Source: Chitinispirillaceae bacterium (lineage in GTDB: Bacteria; Fibrobacterota; Chitinivibrionia; Chitinivibrionales; Chitinispirillaceae). From it: a stretch of 46,099 bases of DNA. The stretch covers positions 1 to 46,099 of the forward strand of contig JAFGIN010000008.1 in assembly GCA_016929595.1 (NCBI GenBank). Direction: 5' to 3'. Shown here in pieces: positions 3,896-44,399 of this stretch. The notes beneath the pieces were generated by a model. It made no database searches. It was not told the origin of the DNA and was given only the letters and a program-made list of their open reading frames with translations. Numbering within the stretch: the stretch's first letter is position 1; every line of letters begins with the position of its first letter. A program made the position numbers and the translations under genes.

Positions 3896-5125
3896 TCATT
3901 CAACCCTTTTACGCAGCATATCGCCAGGACGCAGCTTATATGAAGACTGACAAATAACCAGCCTGTTCGAGGGTGCATAGTGCAAAACATTTCCCTCCAG
4001 ATCAGTTATGAGATCAATTTGAATACGAAGCGGTACAGCATTGCGACCAACAGGCAATACCTCAAGAGTATCCTGACAGGTAAAGCTATTCTTTACGTCA
4101 AGGACTGGTACTCCGTCTCTGAGTGACGCCTTAACAACCGCTATCACCCTTGTGGGGGCGGTAGCCTTTGATGTAAATACTTCCTGAAGATTATATTCCC
4201 CCCTGAGAAAACCCGTCGTGTAAGGACGATGCTCAACAGAGTCAAGTATCTCTCTCCATACAGGAAGTACCTTGTAAGTATCGGAATTTTTCTGATATGA
4301 ATCCAACGCTTCGCGGTATACTTTAACTACAGATGCAACATAGTGCACACTTTTATTACGCCCTTCGATCTTTAACGAGCTTACTCCAGACTGAACAATC
4401 TCCGGAAGCAGTTCAATCGTGCAGAGATCTTTTGAATTCAGCAGGTAAACCCCCTGCTCAGTTTCTTCTGCATCAAAAGAACAACTATCAACAGTGAGCT
4501 CCTCAAGAGTAGTTATACGATATTTTAAGCGACAGGGTTGTGAACAATCTCCACGATTTGGATGTCGCCCGTTCATATAGGCTCCTAAAAGACACCTTCC
4601 AGAGATGGAAACACACATCGCACCATGTATAAAAATTTCAGTATCAAGAATCTTTGCTCCATTTACAGTACGAATCTCTTCAAGATCCATCTCACGCGGC
4701 AGAACCACGCGTTCAATTCCATTTTGTTTCCAGAACTGCATTGAAGCCGTATTAAATGTACCAGTCTGGGTACTGAGATGCAGTGGCATATCGGGAAGTA
4801 TCTCCCTGCATGTCACTATCACCCCGGGATCACTGACAATAAAAGCGTCAATGTTGTGACGTAGCGATTTAATCTCTTCACAGGTTTTTCTGATATCAGA
4901 AAGCATCGTCTCATCAGGCATAGTATTAAATGCAGCATAGATCTTTTTTCCACGGGAATGCGCGATCTGAAGAAGTTCATCAAGATCTTCAAGATGAAAA
5001 TTGGGTGAATGAGCGCGAAGATTTAAAGCACCAATACCTGCATAAACAGCATCAGCACCACTATCAAAAGCCGCTTCTGCAATAGAGAGCGAACCAGCAG
5101 GTGCTAAAAGTTCAGGTACTGTCAT
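3896..5125 (-). CDS. Peptidase U32 family protein (TrhP/UbiU-like, [4Fe-4S])
   Basis: The product has 409 residues. It opens with PELLAPAGSLSIAEAAFDSGADAVYAG, the TIM-barrel start of the U32 family. The signature IFIHGAMCVSISGRCLLG...RGDCSQPCR contains Cys171, Cys178 and Cys194, and Cys235 follows in SKDLC. These four match in spacing the [4Fe-4S] ligands known from UbiU and related U32 proteins. A C-terminal beta domain follows. Family members hydroxylate tRNA (TrhP), rRNA (RlhA) or ubiquinone precursors (UbiU/V) with prephenate or electron donors; the single-gene context here fits a TrhP-like tRNA role best, but this is inference. It overlaps the upstream thioredoxin gene by four bases (ATGA). 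Confidence 0.9.
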   Translation of the reverse strand: MTVPELLAPAGSLSIAEAAFDSGADAVYAGIGALNLRAHSPNFHLEDLDELLQIAHSRGKKIYAAFNTMPDETMLSDIRKTCEEIKSLRHNIDAFIVSDPGVIVTCREILPDMPLHLSTQTGTFNTASMQFWKQNGIERVVLPREMDLEEIRTVNGAKILDTEIFIHGAMCVSISGRCLLGAYMNGRHPNRGDCSQPCRLKYRITTLEELTVDSCSFDAEETEQGVYLLNSKDLCTIELLPEIVQSGVSSLKIEGRNKSVHYVASVVKVYREALDSYQKNSDTYKVLPVWREILDSVEHRPYTTGFLRGEYNLQEVFTSKATAPTRVIAVVKASLRDGVPVLDVKNSFTCQDTLEVLPVGRNAVPLRIQIDLITDLEGNVLHYAPSNRLVICQSSYKLRPGDMLRKRVE

Positions 5126-17395: not shown

Positions 17396-19045
17396 TCATT
17401 TTGGGATCAATACGACATTCTGATCCGCGTGTTGATTCATATAGCTGAATTTCGCCCATGCTGCACTTCTTTGAGTTGAATCCATCCTGAATTCATCAAG
17501 AGACCCGTTAAAATAGCGGATTTCAGCATTCGGGACATTGTTATAATCATAGCCACTTCGTCCGATTTCATCATTCCCGAGACCAGACATACTTCGGGAG
17601 TTTAAAATCTGATTTTCAAGCGCCCCATTTATATACAACTCCTCAGTACTGTCTCCCCAGGCCCAGAGGACATGATACCATGTGTTTGCAGTAAAAGATG
17701 TCATCTTCGACGTTTGATAGTACCCGGTATCCGGATCTTCCATTTTGGTAATAAGTTTCCCGACATTCCCTTCAACGGGATAAAATTCCTTGCCTTGCAG
17801 TGTGATAGTATAATTAATACTGTCACTTATTTTTTTGCCCCAGATACCCTGAGTTTTCTCAGCCTGATTATTAAATGTTCTGGCAGGCTTGAACCAGAAC
17901 GATATCGATCCGCTTTTCCGTTCCGGCAAACCTTTTACATACAGGAAGCTGTTTGCGCCATCGAATCTGCGCGCACCGGCAACAACGCCTTCGGCATCAT
18001 GAATCGAACCACTGTCAATTGCAGCAAAGCTGTTTTTCAGTGAATTTTCAACCGAACCGTTGAAATGAAAACAGGTCAGATAGGTATCGCTAAACACCTT
18101 TGATGAATCTGTAAACAGAGATGCATTGTTGTTTCCCCACTGCATGTAAAGTGCTGGTCCACTGTAATTACCATTAATTCGGTCTAAAAGAACCCAGATA
18201 AACGCCTGTTGTTTTGTACTGTCCCAGTATTCAATCTCATGTGACAGTACAGAACTATCCAATGAAATAAAACGTATATCTTTTCCATTACCGCGAGCAC
18301 TGCTGAAACTGAAATTATCTGCAGACAACCTCACCAGCAGTGGGAACTGCTTTAACGTATCTTCAATTGCAGCACCAGCCACTGTCGTATTAATATGAAT
18401 TACTTTATGATAATGCCACCCTGCAGCAGGAAGCTGTACCGTTTTATTTGAAACAGCAGCAACATCCTCTATCTCAACTGGCTCCCACTTTTTTACATCC
18501 GATATTATTTTCAGATCAAATTCACCTTCGGGAAGGTCTTTTACAACGAAAACGCCATCATCACCCACAGGCACACAACGATTCAATCCGTAAATCAGTA
18601 AAAATCGTTTCTGGGTTTTGTCTTCCAGAGGCCCGGCATTGCCACCAATTGACGCATAGGACTTCATAACACCATATAATTTAGTTGTTGAATCCGTAGC
18701 TGCAGATATACTGAAACGCAGACAGACTGCAGATCCGCTGGTATCGTTGACCTCAATAACATAATCACCGCTATCAAGTGAATCGATTACAACGTGACCT
18801 GAATCATCAGTAGAAAGAAACTGTATATCCCCACGCCAGACCGGAGCCTGGGAGTTAATAGCTGCAAGGTACTCTTTTTTTGTAAGAATAACAGGTACTC
18901 TGACAGCAGGTGTACCATCGGAGGAAAATATAACTGCAGCGACTCTTGCATTTCCGGTATCTGCAGTACCACCGGCGGAAGAAGGATTGATACACTGAAC
19001 AATACAAACACAAAAAAAAGTGAAAATCAGGAATACAAAGTTCAT
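17396..19045 (-). CDS. Surface lipoprotein with DUF2341 and LamG-like domains
   Basis: This 549-residue exported protein has a hydrophobic leader ending in VQC, a probable lipobox with Cys18, then the Gly/Thr linker SAGGTADTG. Residues about 30-115 and 125-205 look like two small carboxypeptidase-regulatory or prealbumin-like beta domains. A DUF2341 domain (about 210-330: FPLLVRLSADNFSFSSARGNGKDIRF) and a LamG/concanavalin-like domain (about 345-540: GSISFWFKPARTFNN, DEFRMDSTQRSAAW) follow; such domains often bind glycans. It overlaps the TIGR02147 gene by ATGA. A second lipoprotein at 42166 has the same leader style and the same overlap with a TIGR02147 gene, so the two pairs are paralogous units. 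Confidence 0.82.
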   Translation of the reverse strand: MNFVFLIFTFFCVCIVQCINPSSAGGTADTGNARVAAVIFSSDGTPAVRVPVILTKKEYLAAINSQAPVWRGDIQFLSTDDSGHVVIDSLDSGDYVIEVNDTSGSAVCLRFSISAATDSTTKLYGVMKSYASIGGNAGPLEDKTQKRFLLIYGLNRCVPVGDDGVFVVKDLPEGEFDLKIISDVKKWEPVEIEDVAAVSNKTVQLPAAGWHYHKVIHINTTVAGAAIEDTLKQFPLLVRLSADNFSFSSARGNGKDIRFISLDSSVLSHEIEYWDSTKQQAFIWVLLDRINGNYSGPALYMQWGNNNASLFTDSSKVFSDTYLTCFHFNGSVENSLKNSFAAIDSGSIHDAEGVVAGARRFDGANSFLYVKGLPERKSGSISFWFKPARTFNNQAEKTQGIWGKKISDSINYTITLQGKEFYPVEGNVGKLITKMEDPDTGYYQTSKMTSFTANTWYHVLWAWGDSTEELYINGALENQILNSRSMSGLGNDEIGRSGYDYNNVPNAEIRYFNGSLDEFRMDSTQRSAAWAKFSYMNQHADQNVVLIPK

Positions 19046-19896
19046 TCACCCTCCGGGAGCTCTTTTGTCTGGACAGTCAACTCCTCACTTACCGGAAAAA
19101 GTGAAATACACATCTGGTAGATCCTGTTACTATTTTTATCATTATTAACGATTACTTTCACCCTGTCCTTAAAGGCTTCAATTTCATCTGCAATCAGTCC
19201 ATACCCTTCAGAAGAAACACCCAAAGTAATACCTGAAATGTGCCTGACTTTTTTATCGAGCGTATCGAGAGCCAATCTGGACTTGTCTATCATCGTATGC
19301 ATAAATGATCTGATCGCAACTGATGTAACAGAACTATCGGCAACTATCGCAGGAGATGTCTGCTGAAAGATGCCGTTTTCCAACCGTTTAACAAGCCCCA
19401 GCTTAAGGAGCAGCTGGATAGCATTATGTGCCTGGATCGGTTCGATACATGGCCGTACCTTTGATGCTATCTCAGCGTAATCATCTTTAAAATTATACAG
19501 GCAAATTAACTCCCGTATAACCGGAATATACCATTCGCCATAAAAATCAAACTGAAACGAATTCAAAACCGCTTCAGAAATTCCACTTACCATTGACTTA
19601 AGTGCAGCGTAATACTCCTGCTTTTCTGTGGAAGTCCTCGCCTGGTTAAATAGTACCAATAAACGAAAATACTTTTTTTCCTTTGGCCCCAGGGACAAAG
19701 CTTTCGAAAAGCGTTCCGTCATCTGTGGTGTAAGATTACGCTCACCATCGATGACATGCTTCAAAAAAGATGGTGAGTTCACTCCAATTTTCTGCGCGAA
19801 ATAACGATAAGAAAAATACCTTACCGTGCTCTTTTTTTCCTGATAATAATCAGCCAGAAAACGACGATAGTCTATATATTCAAAAATTGGTTTCAT
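19042..19896 (-). CDS. TIGR02147/DUF4423 family putative transcriptional regulator
   Basis: From Met at 19896 the product has 284 residues. I prefer this start to the longer reading beginning at 19950, because AGGTACT precedes it and the paralogue at 43422 starts at the same point (xxIFEYxxYRxxLxDxY). Residues 1-75 form an HTH-like N-terminal region (RYFAQKIGVNSPSFLKHVIDGERNLTPQMTERF) and the rest is the DUF4423 domain. The family is known chiefly from Fibrobacter and has no firm function; a cytoplasmic DNA-binding role is inferred. It is followed, with a four-base overlap, by the surface lipoprotein gene. Confidence 0.85.
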   Translation of the reverse strand: MKPIFEYIDYRRFLADYYQEKKSTVRYFSYRYFAQKIGVNSPSFLKHVIDGERNLTPQMTERFSKALSLGPKEKKYFRLLVLFNQARTSTEKQEYYAALKSMVSGISEAVLNSFQFDFYGEWYIPVIRELICLYNFKDDYAEIASKVRPCIEPIQAHNAIQLLLKLGLVKRLENGIFQQTSPAIVADSSVTSVAIRSFMHTMIDKSRLALDTLDKKVRHISGITLGVSSEGYGLIADEIEAFKDRVKVIVNNDKNSNRIYQMCISLFPVSEELTVQTKELPEGE

Positions 19897-19960
19897 AGTA
19901 CCTAATATAACGGAATTCGAACTGAACCATATCCTGAATAAATGATCCATTCAGTATTTA

Positions 19961-38985: not shown

Positions 38986-40242
38986 TCAGTTAAATACAAT
39001 TTTTTTATTAAGTAGCTTAATTGAGGAATTCTTTACTACTATAATATAACTTCCCTTAGCAGCAACTGAACTGATCGGCAAAGCCGATGATCCAGACACT
39101 ACCTTTCTGTAAATTAGCTTGCCATTAAGATCGAAAAGACTTAAAGTATAGTTGCTTTTTTGTGCAGTTCCATCAATCGATACCTTATTTCTATTAAAAG
39201 TAACATTCGATCCGGTAATCTGTGAAACACTCTTTGTAGCAACTGCTGGACCGTATTCAGCCATAATATTTGGGACTTCATCACGGGTAATCACAAGATC
39301 ATGAGCATAAACTGATTTCAAATAATTTTTGTCTACCCCAAATATATGCTCTGTATGCCATACCATAAACCATGACCACATTGCATCCTTACTCTTGCAC
39401 AAGTCAGGATTTGGTGGTGTACCACATTCATGGTAAACTATCGGCATAGTACTTCCATGAATGGCTTTAACTGCCTTATACATACTTTCATGTGCAGAAT
39501 TATCTCCATACGTATCTGTTCCAACAAGATCATAATATCCTGTTCCTGGATTATACCCATTATCAGCACTGCCATCGTATCCCAGAAACCAGATCAGATT
39601 ATTTAAACCTTTGGTTTTTGTATAGTAGTCAAACATGAATTTCCATAATTTTTTAAAACCCTCACCACCATTCATATCCCACCAAAACCAGCCTCCACTG
39701 CACTCATGCATCGGCCTCCAGATAACCGGTACGTTGGCCTTTTTCAGTTTCAGCAGATGCGCAGCAATTCTATCCAGGTCAAGCATCATCTCCCTATTCT
39801 CATTAGTCCCGACTGTAAGGCACTTGTCAACATAACCCGCAGCCAGGGGCTTACCGTTATTTTTACTCGCTTCATAGCCTTCCCCAACTGTCGGAGCACC
39901 CCAATGCCACATTATTGTTGGAATCCCACCAGCTTTCCACCAATCAATCGCATCCTGTATTTCATTGTTATTTGCACTTTCATTTATAAGGTCCTGACCA
40001 CGAATTGCAGGATATTTCCCAGTCGTCTGGTACACATATTCCGTTTCATCAATCTTAGCCCATGGTGCATACATCTGACCAGATAAAATCTTTTTACCAT
40101 ACATGTCATAAATGTAATTTAGAAGGGCCTGAGCTTCCGGTGATGCATCAGGTATAACTGGCACAGCTGCATAGGTTGATATTAAAAAGAACATTATTCC
40201 ACCTATCAGGCTCCTAACAATATTAAACCGTTTAGTCGACAT
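38986..40242 (-). CDS. GH26 beta-mannanase with type-IX-like CTD
   Basis: The 418-residue secreted enzyme has a signal peptide (about 1-26). The GH26 TIM barrel (about 30-335) has acid/base Glu180 in WRPMHECSGGWFWW and nucleophile Glu272 in PIVYHECG, plus IMWHWGAP, all typical of the family, which hydrolyses beta-1,4-mannan or mixed glucomannan. The last 75 residues (VSIDGTA..LSLFDLNGKLIYRKV...AAKGSYIIVVKN) form a sorting-type C-terminal domain, so the enzyme is probably surface-bound or secreted by a type IX-like system. It lies 29 bp downstream of the CE1 esterase and probably shares its transcript. Confidence 0.95.
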   Translation of the reverse strand: MSTKRFNIVRSLIGGIMFFLISTYAAVPVIPDASPEAQALLNYIYDMYGKKILSGQMYAPWAKIDETEYVYQTTGKYPAIRGQDLINESANNNEIQDAIDWWKAGGIPTIMWHWGAPTVGEGYEASKNNGKPLAAGYVDKCLTVGTNENREMMLDLDRIAAHLLKLKKANVPVIWRPMHECSGGWFWWDMNGGEGFKKLWKFMFDYYTKTKGLNNLIWFLGYDGSADNGYNPGTGYYDLVGTDTYGDNSAHESMYKAVKAIHGSTMPIVYHECGTPPNPDLCKSKDAMWSWFMVWHTEHIFGVDKNYLKSVYAHDLVITRDEVPNIMAEYGPAVATKSVSQITGSNVTFNRNKVSIDGTAQKSNYTLSLFDLNGKLIYRKVVSGSSALPISSVAAKGSYIIVVKNSSIKLLNKKIVFN

Positions 40243-40271: not shown

Positions 40272-41324
40272 CTATTTAAGAATTTTTTGAATTATTACTA
40301 ACCTTCCATCGATACGGAACAGGCTGGATATCTTTGCATTAGGCGCCATGCGTTGCACCATCAACCGCTCACTCCCGGATTTGAACACGAGCTGAGTCTG
40401 CGACACGAGTCGAGTCTTCAGTGAATTCCCGTTCAGGCCATCACGAGACAAGGTGATTCCTGTCGCAGTGCTGGTGAAAATATGCGGAACAAAATTATAG
40501 AAACAGCGATTGAAACAATTCCAGTCATGACCTAATCCCTGTTCATACTGGAAGGTATGGGTGATACCCTTGCTGTCGAAGAACGCATGGTACTGGTCGG
40601 CTGAACCTTTCGTAAGGTTGTCCGCGGTTCCTACCCCGATAAAGATGTAGCGCATTTTCTCCTTTATTACTGACGGATCCGGAACATTCTTTTCGGGCGC
40701 ATTTGGTATAGCGGGTGCAAATGCCCCTATCCAGTTGAAGACGTCGGTATTCGTCAGCCCGAAATTTAGCGTCTGCCCTCCTCCCATTGACAAACCGCCG
40801 ATGGCGCGACTGAGGGGGTCGGTCAAGGTGGAATACGTTTTGTCAATGTACGGAATCAAGTCTTTCAAAAGCAAATCTCCGAATTTTGCAAAGTTGCTCA
40901 TAGTACCATTATCACCCACAGCGTTATCAGGGAAAACCACTATCATGGGGACGATCTTTTTATCCGCCAGATAGTTATCCAGGATGTTATTTGCTTTCCC
41001 ACTGGACCCGTTGGTCCATGAGGGATGGTCATCGCCGAGGCCATGGAGTATGTAAAGAACCGGATACTTCTTATCGGTAGAATATCCCGGCGGAAGCCAT
41101 ATCGAATACAATTGTTGCCCGTTATTCCGGGTCGGATAGGATAGAGACTTTTTCACCTCCCCTTGCGGCACATTCTTTACCGCATCCCATCCGTTCGGGG
41201 GAACGGGTAGATTCGCGTTACCGGAAGAACCGGTGGTTGCCGGATAAACAGGTTTAGAATAAATTGCGACCAATACAAAACAGACAAACATGTATACTAT
41301 TCTTGTAAATGGTACTTTAAACAT
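40272..41324 (-). CDS. CE1-type esterase (feruloyl/acetyl esterase-like), secreted
   Basis: I choose ATG at 41324 (350 residues) because AAAGGAGAAAAA directly precedes it; the reading from 41342 only adds six residues. A signal peptide (about 1-30) is followed by an alpha/beta-hydrolase of the esterase D/CE1 group: LYILHGLGDDHPSW oxyanion region, nucleophile Ser179 in GGLSMGG, and probable Asp235 (VGTADN) and His266 (GLGHDW). The enzyme would remove acetyl or feruloyl groups from hemicellulose and so help the neighbouring mannanase. The C-terminal 60 residues resemble a shortened sorting domain (SSLFRIDGRLVIIQK). Substrate choice between acetyl and feruloyl cannot be made from sequence alone. 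Confidence 0.88.
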   Translation of the reverse strand: MFKVPFTRIVYMFVCFVLVAIYSKPVYPATTGSSGNANLPVPPNGWDAVKNVPQGEVKKSLSYPTRNNGQQLYSIWLPPGYSTDKKYPVLYILHGLGDDHPSWTNGSSGKANNILDNYLADKKIVPMIVVFPDNAVGDNGTMSNFAKFGDLLLKDLIPYIDKTYSTLTDPLSRAIGGLSMGGGQTLNFGLTNTDVFNWIGAFAPAIPNAPEKNVPDPSVIKEKMRYIFIGVGTADNLTKGSADQYHAFFDSKGITHTFQYEQGLGHDWNCFNRCFYNFVPHIFTSTATGITLSRDGLNGNSLKTRLVSQTQLVFKSGSERLMVQRMAPNAKISSLFRIDGRLVIIQKILK

Positions 41325-41365
41325 TTTTTCTCCTTTAAACATTGAAGTTCTAACCTATTAATTAT

Positions 41366-41800
41366 TTATTCGTCCCTGTTAACCACTTTAAAAAATTCCA
41401 TACCCTTTGGAGAAACAAATTGGACAACAACAAATCCTTTTGTATCGATTATCGTATTTGAACCTGCTGAGAGGGTTACCTTTTTTAGGACATTTCCATT
41501 AAGTGCAACAATAGTAGCAATTCCATCACAAGCCGAGCGAATGTTAATCTTACCGTTTACGGAGACAACTTTTATTTTATGCATTGGACCGGAAGAAGAT
41601 TCGTGATATTCATCATTGCTTGCTATTGTTGAATACAAATGACTCATTTTTTCAAACCAGAGCCTCTGAATACTTGCAGCGCCGGCCGCATTGGGATGAA
41701 CACCATCACTGTTTTACCTCTGGAAATGATTGAATTGGGTATCATTGCTGAAACAGCTATGCAATTCACACAAATAAATATCAGCATGGATTCTAATTTG
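41366..41800 (-). pseudogene. Broken SGNH/GDSL esterase with type-IX-like CTD
   Basis: One minus-strand frame runs from 41800 to 41366 with an in-frame TAA at 41716-41714. Before the stop it reads IHADIYLCEL..., which resembles an SGNH-hydrolase strand. Right after it comes NSDGVHPNAAGAASIQRLW, the family's block V with the Asp-His dyad. The remaining 80 codons form a sorting-type CTD (KIKVVSVNGKINIRSACDG; GMEFFKVV). The N-terminal half with the catalytic Ser is missing and another stop closes the frame at 41801, so the gene is truncated and interrupted. It is the relic of a third carbohydrate esterase in this block. Confidence 0.7.
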
Positions 41801-42165
41801 TTATATTCCCTGTTCATACAAGTCCCCTTCAAGGTCTTTTTTTAAAAATGACACAACAGATAAATATCTGTTAACAAAATACCGTTTTTTAAATTCTTCT
41901 GCACTCAGTTCTGTATCCAATATTGGCAATTCCGTTGAACTTGTGTTCAACGATTGTAGCAGAAATGTTGGTTATTCTTCTTAAAATTTGAGGAATTTTT
42001 TGATATCGTAACTGTATGAAACTTTTTATGGGAAAATAAAGTTCAACACTAACTTGAAATCACGGGTTAAGTTACGCTCGGGAAAAAACATTAATTTACA
42101 TTAGGTGGTAGCCATGCTAAAAAGTGAAAACTACTTAACACGTACAACTTTTAGCCTGCTTCATT
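41801..42165. other. Intergenic region with operator-like sites
   Basis: I see no gene here. It holds a 20-bp palindrome (41933-41952) and a further half-site GTTCAAC at 42041-42047 that is followed by TTGAA, giving TTCAA-N8-TTGAA. The region lies upstream of the esterase/mannanase genes on the minus strand. Confidence 0.5.
41933..41952. promoter_or_regulatory. Palindromic operator candidate, site 1
   Basis: CGTTGAAC-TTGT-GTTCAACG is a perfect 8-bp inverted repeat with a 4-nt spacer. It is almost identical to the palindrome at 44380-44399 (same seven inner arm bases, same spacer length, spacer ending GT). Two matching sites bracketing one operon suggest binding of the same dimeric regulator, probably the TIGR02147 protein encoded at 43422. 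Confidence 0.6.
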
Positions 42166-43425
42166 TTATTTCAATGCGTTTAATCCAATGTTTTCAAGAT
42201 AAAAATCATCAATGATAAACCGCAGTGTATCGCCTCGAGTGTTGGTTTGTGTTGAAAATTCAAATTCGATATCGATTAAATTTCTTGCATCATTTGCCCA
42301 TATATACTGATCTGGTGACTGGATATTCGGGACAATATGCAATGAATCAACCGATATACGATAATCGCGGAGTGTATCTGTTAAAGACAGCAGATAGGTG
42401 TAATTAGACAAGCCCTTTGTTGCAGAGATAAGATTCTGTGTCTCAAAACGCACCCAGACGATTCCTTTGCCTTTTGCTCTAAAAGAAAAACCAGTCATAG
42501 CAGATATATCAACCCCTGCGGGATTTATGCCAGTCATCGATACTCCAGCTACTGCATAGGGTGCATTTGCCTTATCTAGTACAGCTGCAAACTGCATTGC
42601 TGTTCCACCATTATCAATAGGTACAGCAGCGATCGATACGTAACTTTGACTATTTGTACCTTGAGTAGTTTCTATTTTATCAATAATTTTATTGTAAAAA
42701 CAAGATCCATTATCAGAGACTGCATACCAGCTTAAATTCGGAATTAATTTTCCAATAGCTGTTGTATTTACGCCATTTTCGAAGTCGTCTATAAGAAGGT
42801 GATTTATAGAACCACTCAGTGTTGTATCAATCGTGGTTTTCCCAGGTTTCAAAGTTATTCCACCGCATATACCGATTTCTAGTGACACCTGATTGAAGGT
42901 TTTGCCGATAACAGTATACGCTTCCGGAGCAACTTTACTAAAGATAAACCCGTTAGACAAAACCGCCGCCCTGTAGTTAGAACCCGATAATAATAGCTCT
43001 TTTATACTATCGTTTTGCCCTTCAAATTTCCCACTATACATTGAATATGTATTCAACCTGAATGTATCATCCTTGATTGATTCAGTAGTAATTGATCTCA
43101 CTAAAGAGCCTTCTTGATTATGATCAATCTGAATGTTATAGGACTTGCTTTTATCCTGAAGAGAAAATTTTATATGACCTTGCGAATCCGCAACTGTTTG
43201 CTGAACAACCACAGAAGACCCACTCTTAATACTATCAAGCCACCCATTTGCATCTATTACTTGCACCAATGCACCTCTTGCTGGTGTTCCATCCGAAAGA
43301 CATGCAAGTGCATTTACAGTCTCTGTACCACTGCCTCCCCCATCTGAAACGGGTTCAAGACCACAGGAGAGGAATACTAACATCAATTGAGTTATTAATA
43401 GTAATGCATTTATTATCTGCATCAC
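42166..43425 (-). CDS. Surface lipoprotein with C-terminal CBM11/CIA30-like domain
   Basis: The 419-residue protein has a lipoprotein signal (LMLVFLSCG, Cys22) and the linker SDGGGSGTET. Two small beta domains resembling carboxypeptidase-regulatory modules (about 37-120 and 120-205; CLSDGTPARGALVQVIDANG) follow. A C-terminal beta-sandwich (about 215-415) has LLIDDFENG, FSFRAKGKGIVWVRFET and FIIDDFYLENIGL, a pattern seen in CBM11 and CIA30-type carbohydrate-binding domains. It likely binds glycan at the cell surface. It overlaps the TIGR02147 gene by ATGA and shares its leader and linker style with the lipoprotein at 17396. Confidence 0.82.
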   Translation of the reverse strand: MMQIINALLLITQLMLVFLSCGLEPVSDGGGSGTETVNALACLSDGTPARGALVQVIDANGWLDSIKSGSSVVVQQTVADSQGHIKFSLQDKSKSYNIQIDHNQEGSLVRSITTESIKDDTFRLNTYSMYSGKFEGQNDSIKELLLSGSNYRAAVLSNGFIFSKVAPEAYTVIGKTFNQVSLEIGICGGITLKPGKTTIDTTLSGSINHLLIDDFENGVNTTAIGKLIPNLSWYAVSDNGSCFYNKIIDKIETTQGTNSQSYVSIAAVPIDNGGTAMQFAAVLDKANAPYAVAGVSMTGINPAGVDISAMTGFSFRAKGKGIVWVRFETQNLISATKGLSNYTYLLSLTDTLRDYRISVDSLHIVPNIQSPDQYIWANDARNLIDIEFEFSTQTNTRGDTLRFIIDDFYLENIGLNALK

Positions 43426-44252
43426 TTTTCCTCCCGTACAGTATTTCTAGAAAGCGGAAAAATCTGAAAATTAAGCTGAAATACCTCTTCCACCTTATCT
43501 TCTTTTCCTACAATCTCCATAATTTCACGCCTTACAACTGCCAGCCGATCCTTGATAAGTTCTATACATTTGCGGGTTGTACTGATAGTAAGTGTTGAAA
43601 TATCACGATCTTGTTTAGGTATCCGGTCCAAAGCTTCCATTCCCAATCGGCATACTTCTTTTTGGAATGATTTTATAGCCAATGCTTTAACTATGCCATC
43701 TGAAGTAATGAATTTATCATTAAGGCTGTATGCACCCTCATTATCTTTACTTATCATCCCCAGGTCTTCCAGAAGTTTAACTGACTTTAGTGCTTGTGCC
43801 GGAGTAATTGGTGGAAGCAGCCTGCCTGCTAAGTCGTTGAAATCGCCCTTATAGGTAAGTATATTTAGTTCTTCTCGAATAGCAATATGCCACCAGGATG
43901 AAAAATAGTCGAACATATTCTTTTCTAATATTTTAGATGCTGGTAATCGCATTGACAATAACTTTTCAAAGTAGAATTTTTCCTGATCAGTTCGTTTCGC
44001 TTTATTAAAGTGCACAAGTGCAGAAAAGTATTCACGTTCACGTCTGTTTAAAGTGAGGAAATCCGATAGAACAGGTATCGCCTTATCTGCGATATGTTTC
44101 TGTTTCTGCAAGACTTTAACGTAAAAACCAGCATCAAGGCCTGTTTTTAAGGAAACATATCGATATGAAAAAAAACTATGGTGTTCTTTGTTGTAATTGT
44201 AATGATCACGCAAATAATTGCGATATTCTAAATATTCAAAAATGGTATTCAT
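43422..44252 (-). CDS. TIGR02147/DUF4423 family putative transcriptional regulator (second copy)
   Basis: From Met at 44252 the product has 276 residues (MNTIFEYLEYRNYLRDHY), aligned with the start of the copy at 19042; the longer reading from 44300 has no homologous counterpart. The N-terminal 75 residues carry the HTH-like segment RYVSLKTGLDAGFYVKVLQKQKHIADKAIPVL (in parts), and the DUF4423 domain follows. Similarity to the first copy is clear but distant. It is co-translated with the glycan-binding lipoprotein, lies next to the mannanase/esterase block, and has a palindrome about 130 bp upstream, so it probably regulates this block. This is inference. Confidence 0.85.
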   Translation of the reverse strand: MNTIFEYLEYRNYLRDHYNYNKEHHSFFSYRYVSLKTGLDAGFYVKVLQKQKHIADKAIPVLSDFLTLNRREREYFSALVHFNKAKRTDQEKFYFEKLLSMRLPASKILEKNMFDYFSSWWHIAIREELNILTYKGDFNDLAGRLLPPITPAQALKSVKLLEDLGMISKDNEGAYSLNDKFITSDGIVKALAIKSFQKEVCRLGMEALDRIPKQDRDISTLTISTTRKCIELIKDRLAVVRREIMEIVGKEDKVEEVFQLNFQIFPLSRNTVREEK

Positions 44253-44379
44253 CTCAGACTCATTACGCCTTAAGTTCATTAGTGTTGAACTTTTTCCCAA
44301 TCAAGTCGATCTATCCTGTCTAGTAGTATACAAAAAAGGCCTCAAAAAGCCTATATTTTTTAAAACTATTAAACTTATA

Positions 44380-44399
44380 TGTTGAACAAGTGTTCAACA
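44380..44399. promoter_or_regulatory. Palindromic operator candidate, site 2
   Basis: TGTTGAAC-AAGT-GTTCAACA is a perfect 8-bp inverted repeat with a 4-nt spacer, about 130 bp upstream of the TIGR02147 start. It matches site 1 at 41933. A single half-site GTTGAAC (44284-44290) lies between it and the gene. Confidence 0.65.

Follow-up and report, generated by a model that had tools for sequence, protein, structure and literature searches.

Fibrobacterota are known for the degradation of plant fibre and chitin, and their genomes carry tens of copies of TIGR02147/DUF4423 proteins, a family without any function on record in the sources searched. TIGR02147 is not named in the open-access literature that we searched, where DUF4423 is mentioned in a single paper; subscription journals were not covered and prior work cannot be excluded. 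One regulator whose mode of action has been described is E. coli CRP, a class I activator of the lac promoter that works from -61.5 (PMC6301791). Here, we analysed a stretch of 46,099 nucleotides (hereafter the window), corresponding to the entire contig C145. The genome to which it belongs (6.6 Mb) has Chitinispirillaceae/Chitinivibrionales MAGs from the Fibrobacterota as its nearest named relatives. In the window, two palindromes (sites 1 and 2) flank a TIGR02147 regulator-lipoprotein pair. We propose that these palindromes are likely (probability of about 0.82) the operators of the TIGR02147 protein encoded between them, acting as an activator, with binding, dimerisation and activation being inferred. 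Since no paper naming TIGR02147 was found in the open-access literature searched, the suggestion of an earlier note, made from the sequence alone, that this would provide the first DNA motif for the family remains plausible.

The regulator is a clear member of this family, with 261.1 bits against TIGR02147.1 (cut-off 50) and 105 bits against PF14394 (cut-off 30), in a genome holding 54 TIGR02147 matches. Its AlphaFold2 model (mean pLDDT 82) places residue 42 near the N-terminus of helix 41-48. The predicted fold of the N-terminal residues 6-90 aligns with HigA-type HTH proteins (VIA-align, Z 8.5 to HigA 3trb_B over 76 residues, near the level called middling) and fold comparison aligns residues 105-185 with HxlR/ArsR/MarR winged helices. 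A Foldseek search returned no match at E <= 0.001, and the sequence match to a CI repressor was weak (E 0.82). The regulator and its partner lipoprotein form a translationally coupled pair in 15/15 orthologue loci, window included, with a G-T/I-E-T motif after the lipobox. More broadly, most TIGR02147 genes, in the same genome and at loci L180-L259, are followed by a lipoprotein gene, often with a 4-bp overlap, and the lipoproteins paired with TIGR02147 genes display a short glycine-rich (S/T)ET or GN motif directly after the lipobox Cys. The window also contains a first TIGR02147-secreted protein unit (17396-19950, minus strand; L013), without called operator of the GT[TG]G class defined below.

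The coordinates of the two matching palindromes reported in the earlier note (41933-41952 and 44380-44399) proved exact, as did its two half-sites (42041-42047 and 44284-44290), which read GTTCAAC and GTTGAAC, respectively, and both belong to a 15-bp exact inverted repeat (Table 1). Seven inner arm bases are common to sites 1 and 2, and the outermost arm pair is C/G at site 1 versus T/A at site 2; the arm TGTTGAAC given in the title of that note is matched exactly at site 2 only, a site that can be parsed either as 8-bp arms with a 4-nt spacer or as 9-bp arms with a 2-nt spacer. The perfect motif GTTGAAC-N4-GTTCAAC is present in only two copies in the whole genome, both within the window, for 0.028 expected from base composition. 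A random scattering of the motif through the genome, which would have refuted the operator claim, is thus not observed. Scanning the window with three mismatches was uninformative. Among genome matches with one or two mismatches, all nine of those inspected lie inside ORFs, and two others (C13 and C40) are promoter sites fitting another paralogue, the C40:12706 site being a better fit to the C13 paralogue group than to the window protein. Besides, TGTTGATATGTAATTCAACA occurs twice, 611 bp apart, in a non-coding repeated stretch (C195:4391-4410 and 5002-5021, G000), where no -10 box was seen at the correct spacing.

Table 1. Coordinates, strands and characteristics of the features discussed for the window.
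Feature	Position	Strand	Remarks
Site 1, putative operator	41933..41952	.	CGTTGAACTTGTGTTCAACG; 8-bp arms, 4-nt spacer; direct sequence reading
Site 2, putative operator upstream of the regulator gene	44380..44399	.	TGTTGAACAAGTGTTCAACA; orthologous palindromes at the equivalent place
Predicted -10 box TATACT, regulator promoter	44325..44330	-	59 bp from site 2 centre; operator at about -71.5
Leader half-site	44279..44293	-	AAAGTTCAACACTAA; contains half-site 44284-44290; downstream of the predicted transcription start
TIGR02147/DUF4423 regulator, 276 aa	43422..44252	-	Predicted HTH recognition helix, residues 41-48; Gly42
Partner lipoprotein	42166..43425	-	Lipobox Cys, then GGGSGTETVN; 4-bp overlap with the regulator stop
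Mirror copy of the leader half-site, right of site 1	42038..42052	+	Contains half-site 42041-42047
Predicted -10 box TATTTT, towards the esterase/mannanase genes	41876..41881	-	61 bp from site 1 centre
Gene debris, site 1 to esterase	41350..41870	-	SGNH-esterase-like fragment (DGVHPNAAGAASIQRLW) and secretion-tail-like fragment, broken frames; three-frame translation by eye, no profile match run
Putative esterase (PF00756)	40272..41342	-	Probable target operon
Glycoside hydrolase family 26 (mannanase-type)	38986..40242	-	Secretion tail; probable target operon

Comparable palindromes were recovered in front of related regulators. The orthologue clade of the window regulator (44-58% identity) comprises 15 loci, including the window, 13 loci in relatives and one in nGRbin1. 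GT[TG]G palindromes lie 90-200 bp upstream of the regulator in nine of them, against 0.135 expected from the remainder of the same 207 kb, and no site was called in four orthologue genomes. The architecture of these palindromes is kept while their sequence has drifted (e.g. GTTGAAC-agca-GTTCCAC, GTGGTCA-atta-TGTCCAC, GTGGATA-ttta-TATCCAC and GTGGAAG-tcatt-CTTCCAC). As the GT[TG]G class had been defined after viewing the window and its orthologues, 80 other TIGR02147 genes of the relatives were held out for test: GT[TG]G-N10-C[AC]AC was found upstream of 19 of these loci (0.77 expected), with the exact 4-nt spacer in 18. Five further paralogues of the window genome also carry a GT[TG]G palindrome (0.30 expected). 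Pooling all sets, a site was called for 45 of 143 genes versus 1.8 in dinucleotide shuffles, and the window carries the proposed TIGR02147 operator pattern, TGTKG-N10-CMACA with a 4-nt spacer upstream of the regulator. Called GTNG operators thus cover only about one third of the genes, the remainder having different or undetected sites. The generic palindrome excess among the paralogues of the window genome is modest, with 9/50 beating all 30 shuffles, and therefore not every paralogue has a visible perfect palindrome. In Fibrobacter, loci of the DPAW-type group (L121-L170) show a conserved GTTG-N9-CAAC-like site ~80 bp before the ATG, a shorter spacing than in Chitinispirillia.

The position of these sites relative to promoters was highly constrained. 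Operators were called without regard to the promoter and the downstream TATATT -10 box was located afterwards; the distance from operator centre to -10 box was 49-51 or 59-61 bp in 27/33 cases, for a mean of 2.1 and a maximum of 9 in 5000 trials of a rotation null, and some distances reached 70-71 bp. The two main distances are one helical turn apart. Even in genes without a called operator, palindromicity still peaks 51 and 61 bp away from the -10 box, with motifs of their own, i.e. GTTTTC-N5-GAAAAC (SAGFF-type helix), GTGGACA (D[PA]SYLLKV), GGTGACA (DHAL) and GTGRTGAA-N6 (DSSY), which is why the operator-promoter architecture is likely to be family-wide in Fibrobacterota. No -35 consensus was detected in 32 aligned promoters, other promoters of the genome not being part of the comparison. 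In many TIGR02147 genes, from the window genome and its relatives, the -10 box stands 12-14 bp before the ATG, so that the transcript is probably leaderless with a start fixed near the ATG (starts are predicted, not mapped). With these predicted starts, the observed spacings correspond to operator positions of about -61.5 and -71.5, which satisfies the position criterion for class I activation (centre at about -61.5, -71.5 or -81.5, on one helical face). Because of these class I-like positions and of the lack of a -35 consensus, TIGR02147 proteins are probably activators of their own operons rather than simple repressors, activation being inferred from position; the earlier note gave no mode of action, and the spacing argues for activation. 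Searched genome-wide, the combined operator and TATATT pattern was not enriched (11 matches versus 9 for the reversed control) and therefore cannot list regulons alone; its five convincing matches are on C13, C18, C40, C74 and C160.

Variations of the operators are paralleled in the proteins. An unbiased scan of the recognition-region columns gave, among those that vary, the highest score to residue 42 for half-site base 3 and to residue 40 for base 5; residue 42 stands at the beginning of the predicted recognition helix. Gly42 pairs with GTTG and Ser42 with GTGG: the GTGG half-site was found in 0/23 Gly42 loci versus 18/21 Ser42 loci (Fisher 1.3e-9, or 1e-6 when restricted to the better palindromes). 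Within its clade, the window protein is the one with Gly42, and its site has GTTG; the sister protein in G008 has Ser42 and a mixed GTTG/GTGG site, and the remaining operator-bearing clade members have Ser42 with GTGG in at least one half. Two Ser42 genes that retain GTTG (L015 and L205) are exceptions. A prospective check was provided by C74, where following up a GTGGAAA operator revealed a second member of the clade within the window genome, and this one proved to have Ser42. Counted on the tree, about four independent residue-42 switches comprise three concordant, none discordant and one unchanged, too few for significance. The residue-42 code is consequently well supported as a correlation, without being proven. 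Taken together, genome rarity, the orthologue footprint, held-out paralogues, -10 phasing and covariation support the earlier note in its proposal that the adjacent TIGR02147 protein uses the palindromes as its operators, in the absence of binding data. The second clade member in G000 appears split, with residues 1-132 on C74:88-474 (minus strand) and residues 133-271 plus the lipoprotein on C124:5927-6343 (minus strand; loci L289, L281 and L299). Each fragment stops 87 nt from a contig end, and a repeat insertion or an assembly break is possible.

Of the 13 orthologues tested, 5 repeat the operator arm, perfectly over 8 bp, in the leader that runs from the predicted start to the start codon. 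This leader copy tracks the drift of the operator, being GTTCAACA in the window, TGTCCACA in G010 and G016, GTTCCACA in G039 and TGTGGAAC in G017. The leader half-site is missing in about half of the orthologues and is therefore optional; that it provides negative feedback at high protein level is a possibility, and no more than a guess.

Assigning a target to site 1 is a weaker, inferred step. The esterase/GH26 mannanase operon is its probable target, since a correctly spaced -10 box faces only that way: the leftward box, an imperfect one, has a 3.4% chance per direction, and rightward no -10 box was found at an allowed spacing, a decayed TATCGT being present there. The step is weakened by the 590 bp with gene debris that separate site 1 from the esterase ORF; the broken frames of this debris suggest that the operon may have lost its first gene. 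Debris from at least two genes was noted within 41350-41930 (minus strand), the SGNH-esterase-like fragment being C-terminal. Moreover, to the right of site 1 the flank mirrors the regulator promoter region in decayed form, sharing with it TTTGAGGnnTTTTTTG and the 15-bp AAAGTTCAACACTAA at matching distances; with the palindrome masked, 3/1000 shuffles matched as well. On this side, a 33-aa ORF (42114-42218, plus strand) with an AGGTGG ribosome-binding-like sequence runs into the 3' end of the lipoprotein gene, on the opposite strand. The earlier reading of site 1 as the operator of the esterase/mannanase genes is thus only partly upheld, as the -10 box fits and the debris and mirror-copy flank weaken it.

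Other loci also provide second operator copies: in G039 one precedes a GH5 gene (box at 60), in nGRbin1 a 578-aa secreted protein (box at 50) and on C40 a DUF6055 gene (box at 71). Divergent GH5 genes adjoin the regulator in G010, G016 and G036a, and the GH5 of G010 and G016 shares the operator region; leftward -10 boxes towards these divergent genes at the shared operator were mostly not found. The regulation of neighbouring polysaccharide genes is therefore a probable theme, not a demonstrated one. In G000, TGTGGGCATTTTTCGCCACA (C193:68730-68749; L277), close to the own operator of the C160 regulator, stands 113 bp before a SASA carbohydrate esterase gene, without any good -10 box seen at the expected spacing.

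Other explanations deserve consideration. The TIGR02147 protein could act at these operators as a repressor, combining autorepression with repression of CAZymes, both relieved by a ligand. Many single-component HTH regulators do repress, the predicted N-terminal fold bears some resemblance to HigA antitoxins and the second domain to the winged helices of HxlR/MarR/ArsR, and the leader half-sites stand downstream of the start, so that protein bound there could hinder elongation. However, the full operators precede the -10 box by 50 or 60 bp, positions one turn apart that leave the promoter core free, which fits polymerase contact and not occlusion, and a -35 consensus is lacking; we consider repression unlikely. 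The alternative that site 1 is a relic, i.e. the mirror-image remains of a duplicated right-facing regulator promoter without any present role for the esterase/mannanase genes, is harder to dismiss. It is favoured by the TTTGAGGnnTTTTTTG and AAAGTTCAACACTAA sequences shared with the regulator promoter and by the gene debris on the left side. Against it, the arms of site 1 are perfectly kept despite diverged flanks, with an outermost pair changed symmetrically from T/A to C/G; the rightward -10 box has decayed while a leftward one stands at an allowed spacing; and in relatives a second copy precedes a GH5 gene (G039) or the operator region is common to a divergent GH5 gene (G010 and G016). On balance, we consider the relic less likely than not.

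Two further readings are very unlikely. GAAC-N4-GTTC is the LexA box of Gram-positive bacteria, and the core of the sites (GAACAAGTGTTC) fits this consensus, which could make them SOS boxes. Yet the outer GTTG/CAAC bases show family-wide conservation and vary with the TIGR02147 protein, and this reading was rejected as no GAAC-N4-GTTC was found upstream of the genome's own lexA or recA. The palindromes could also be transcription terminators, processing hairpins or chance repeats, given that weak inverted repeats are numerous in the AT-rich intergenic surroundings. Both window sites lack the downstream T-run typical of terminators, leading us to reject this option, and chance is excluded by the genome-wide uniqueness and the footprints.

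Returning to the preferred reading of an operator-bound activator, the unique pair, the orthologue and paralogue footprints, the phasing and the covariation are computed results, and the mechanism that follows is inferred. The regulator, probably a symmetric dimer, would bind TGTTGAAC-N4-GTTCAACA through its N-terminal HTH. At site 2, about -71.5 from the start of its own operon and on the same helix face as a class I activator, it would recruit RNA polymerase to a promoter with a -10 box and no recognisable -35, and the leader half-site downstream of the start may add negative feedback when the regulator is abundant. From site 1, it would most likely switch on the esterase/GH26 mannanase genes in the leftward direction, the first gene of this group having presumably decayed. 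For the coupled lipoprotein, a place in the same input or output loop is probable, and likewise inferred.

A bolder reading, which we would neither favour nor discard, is that TIGR02147-lipoprotein pairs constitute a large set of mutually insulated local activators, one pair to one operator, with tens of paralogues per genome each in charge of its own pair plus one or two polysaccharide genes nearby. An in-paralogue would then be shifted to a new operator by a single substitution where the recognition helix begins (Ser42 to Gly alongside GTGG to GTTG; position 40 alongside base 5), preventing cross-talk with its sister. A family-wide operator, together with a promoter rule that sets its centre at 50 or 60 bp from the -10 box and a candidate specificity residue, would turn these proteins into predictable activators whose targets are readable from sequence, and whose code a single amino-acid and a single base change could probe. 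This also raises the question of the role of the coupled GTET-type lipoprotein.

With class I activators such as E. coli CRP, the system has in common an operator centre at about -61.5/-71.5 from the predicted start, helical phasing and, as far as the 32 aligned promoters show, a weak or absent -35 box. In contrast to CRP, TIGR02147 proteins form an unrelated sequence family in which each paralogue apparently has its own operator, and a contact with the alpha-CTD would be an inference. LexA boxes resemble the sites in their core 12 bp and differ in their outer bases and targets. A tentative likeness to XRE/lambda-repressor-like HTH proteins, such as HigA antitoxins, resides in the predicted N-terminal fold, with the recognition helix at residues 41-48 of the regulator; unlike these antitoxins, the regulator adds a second winged-helix-like domain and a C-terminal helix, and its partner is a lipoprotein, not a toxin. 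Finally, compared with the TIGR02147 (Fsuc_second) and Pfam DUF4423 family models, which give no function, a DNA motif, a promoter architecture and a specificity residue are proposed here.
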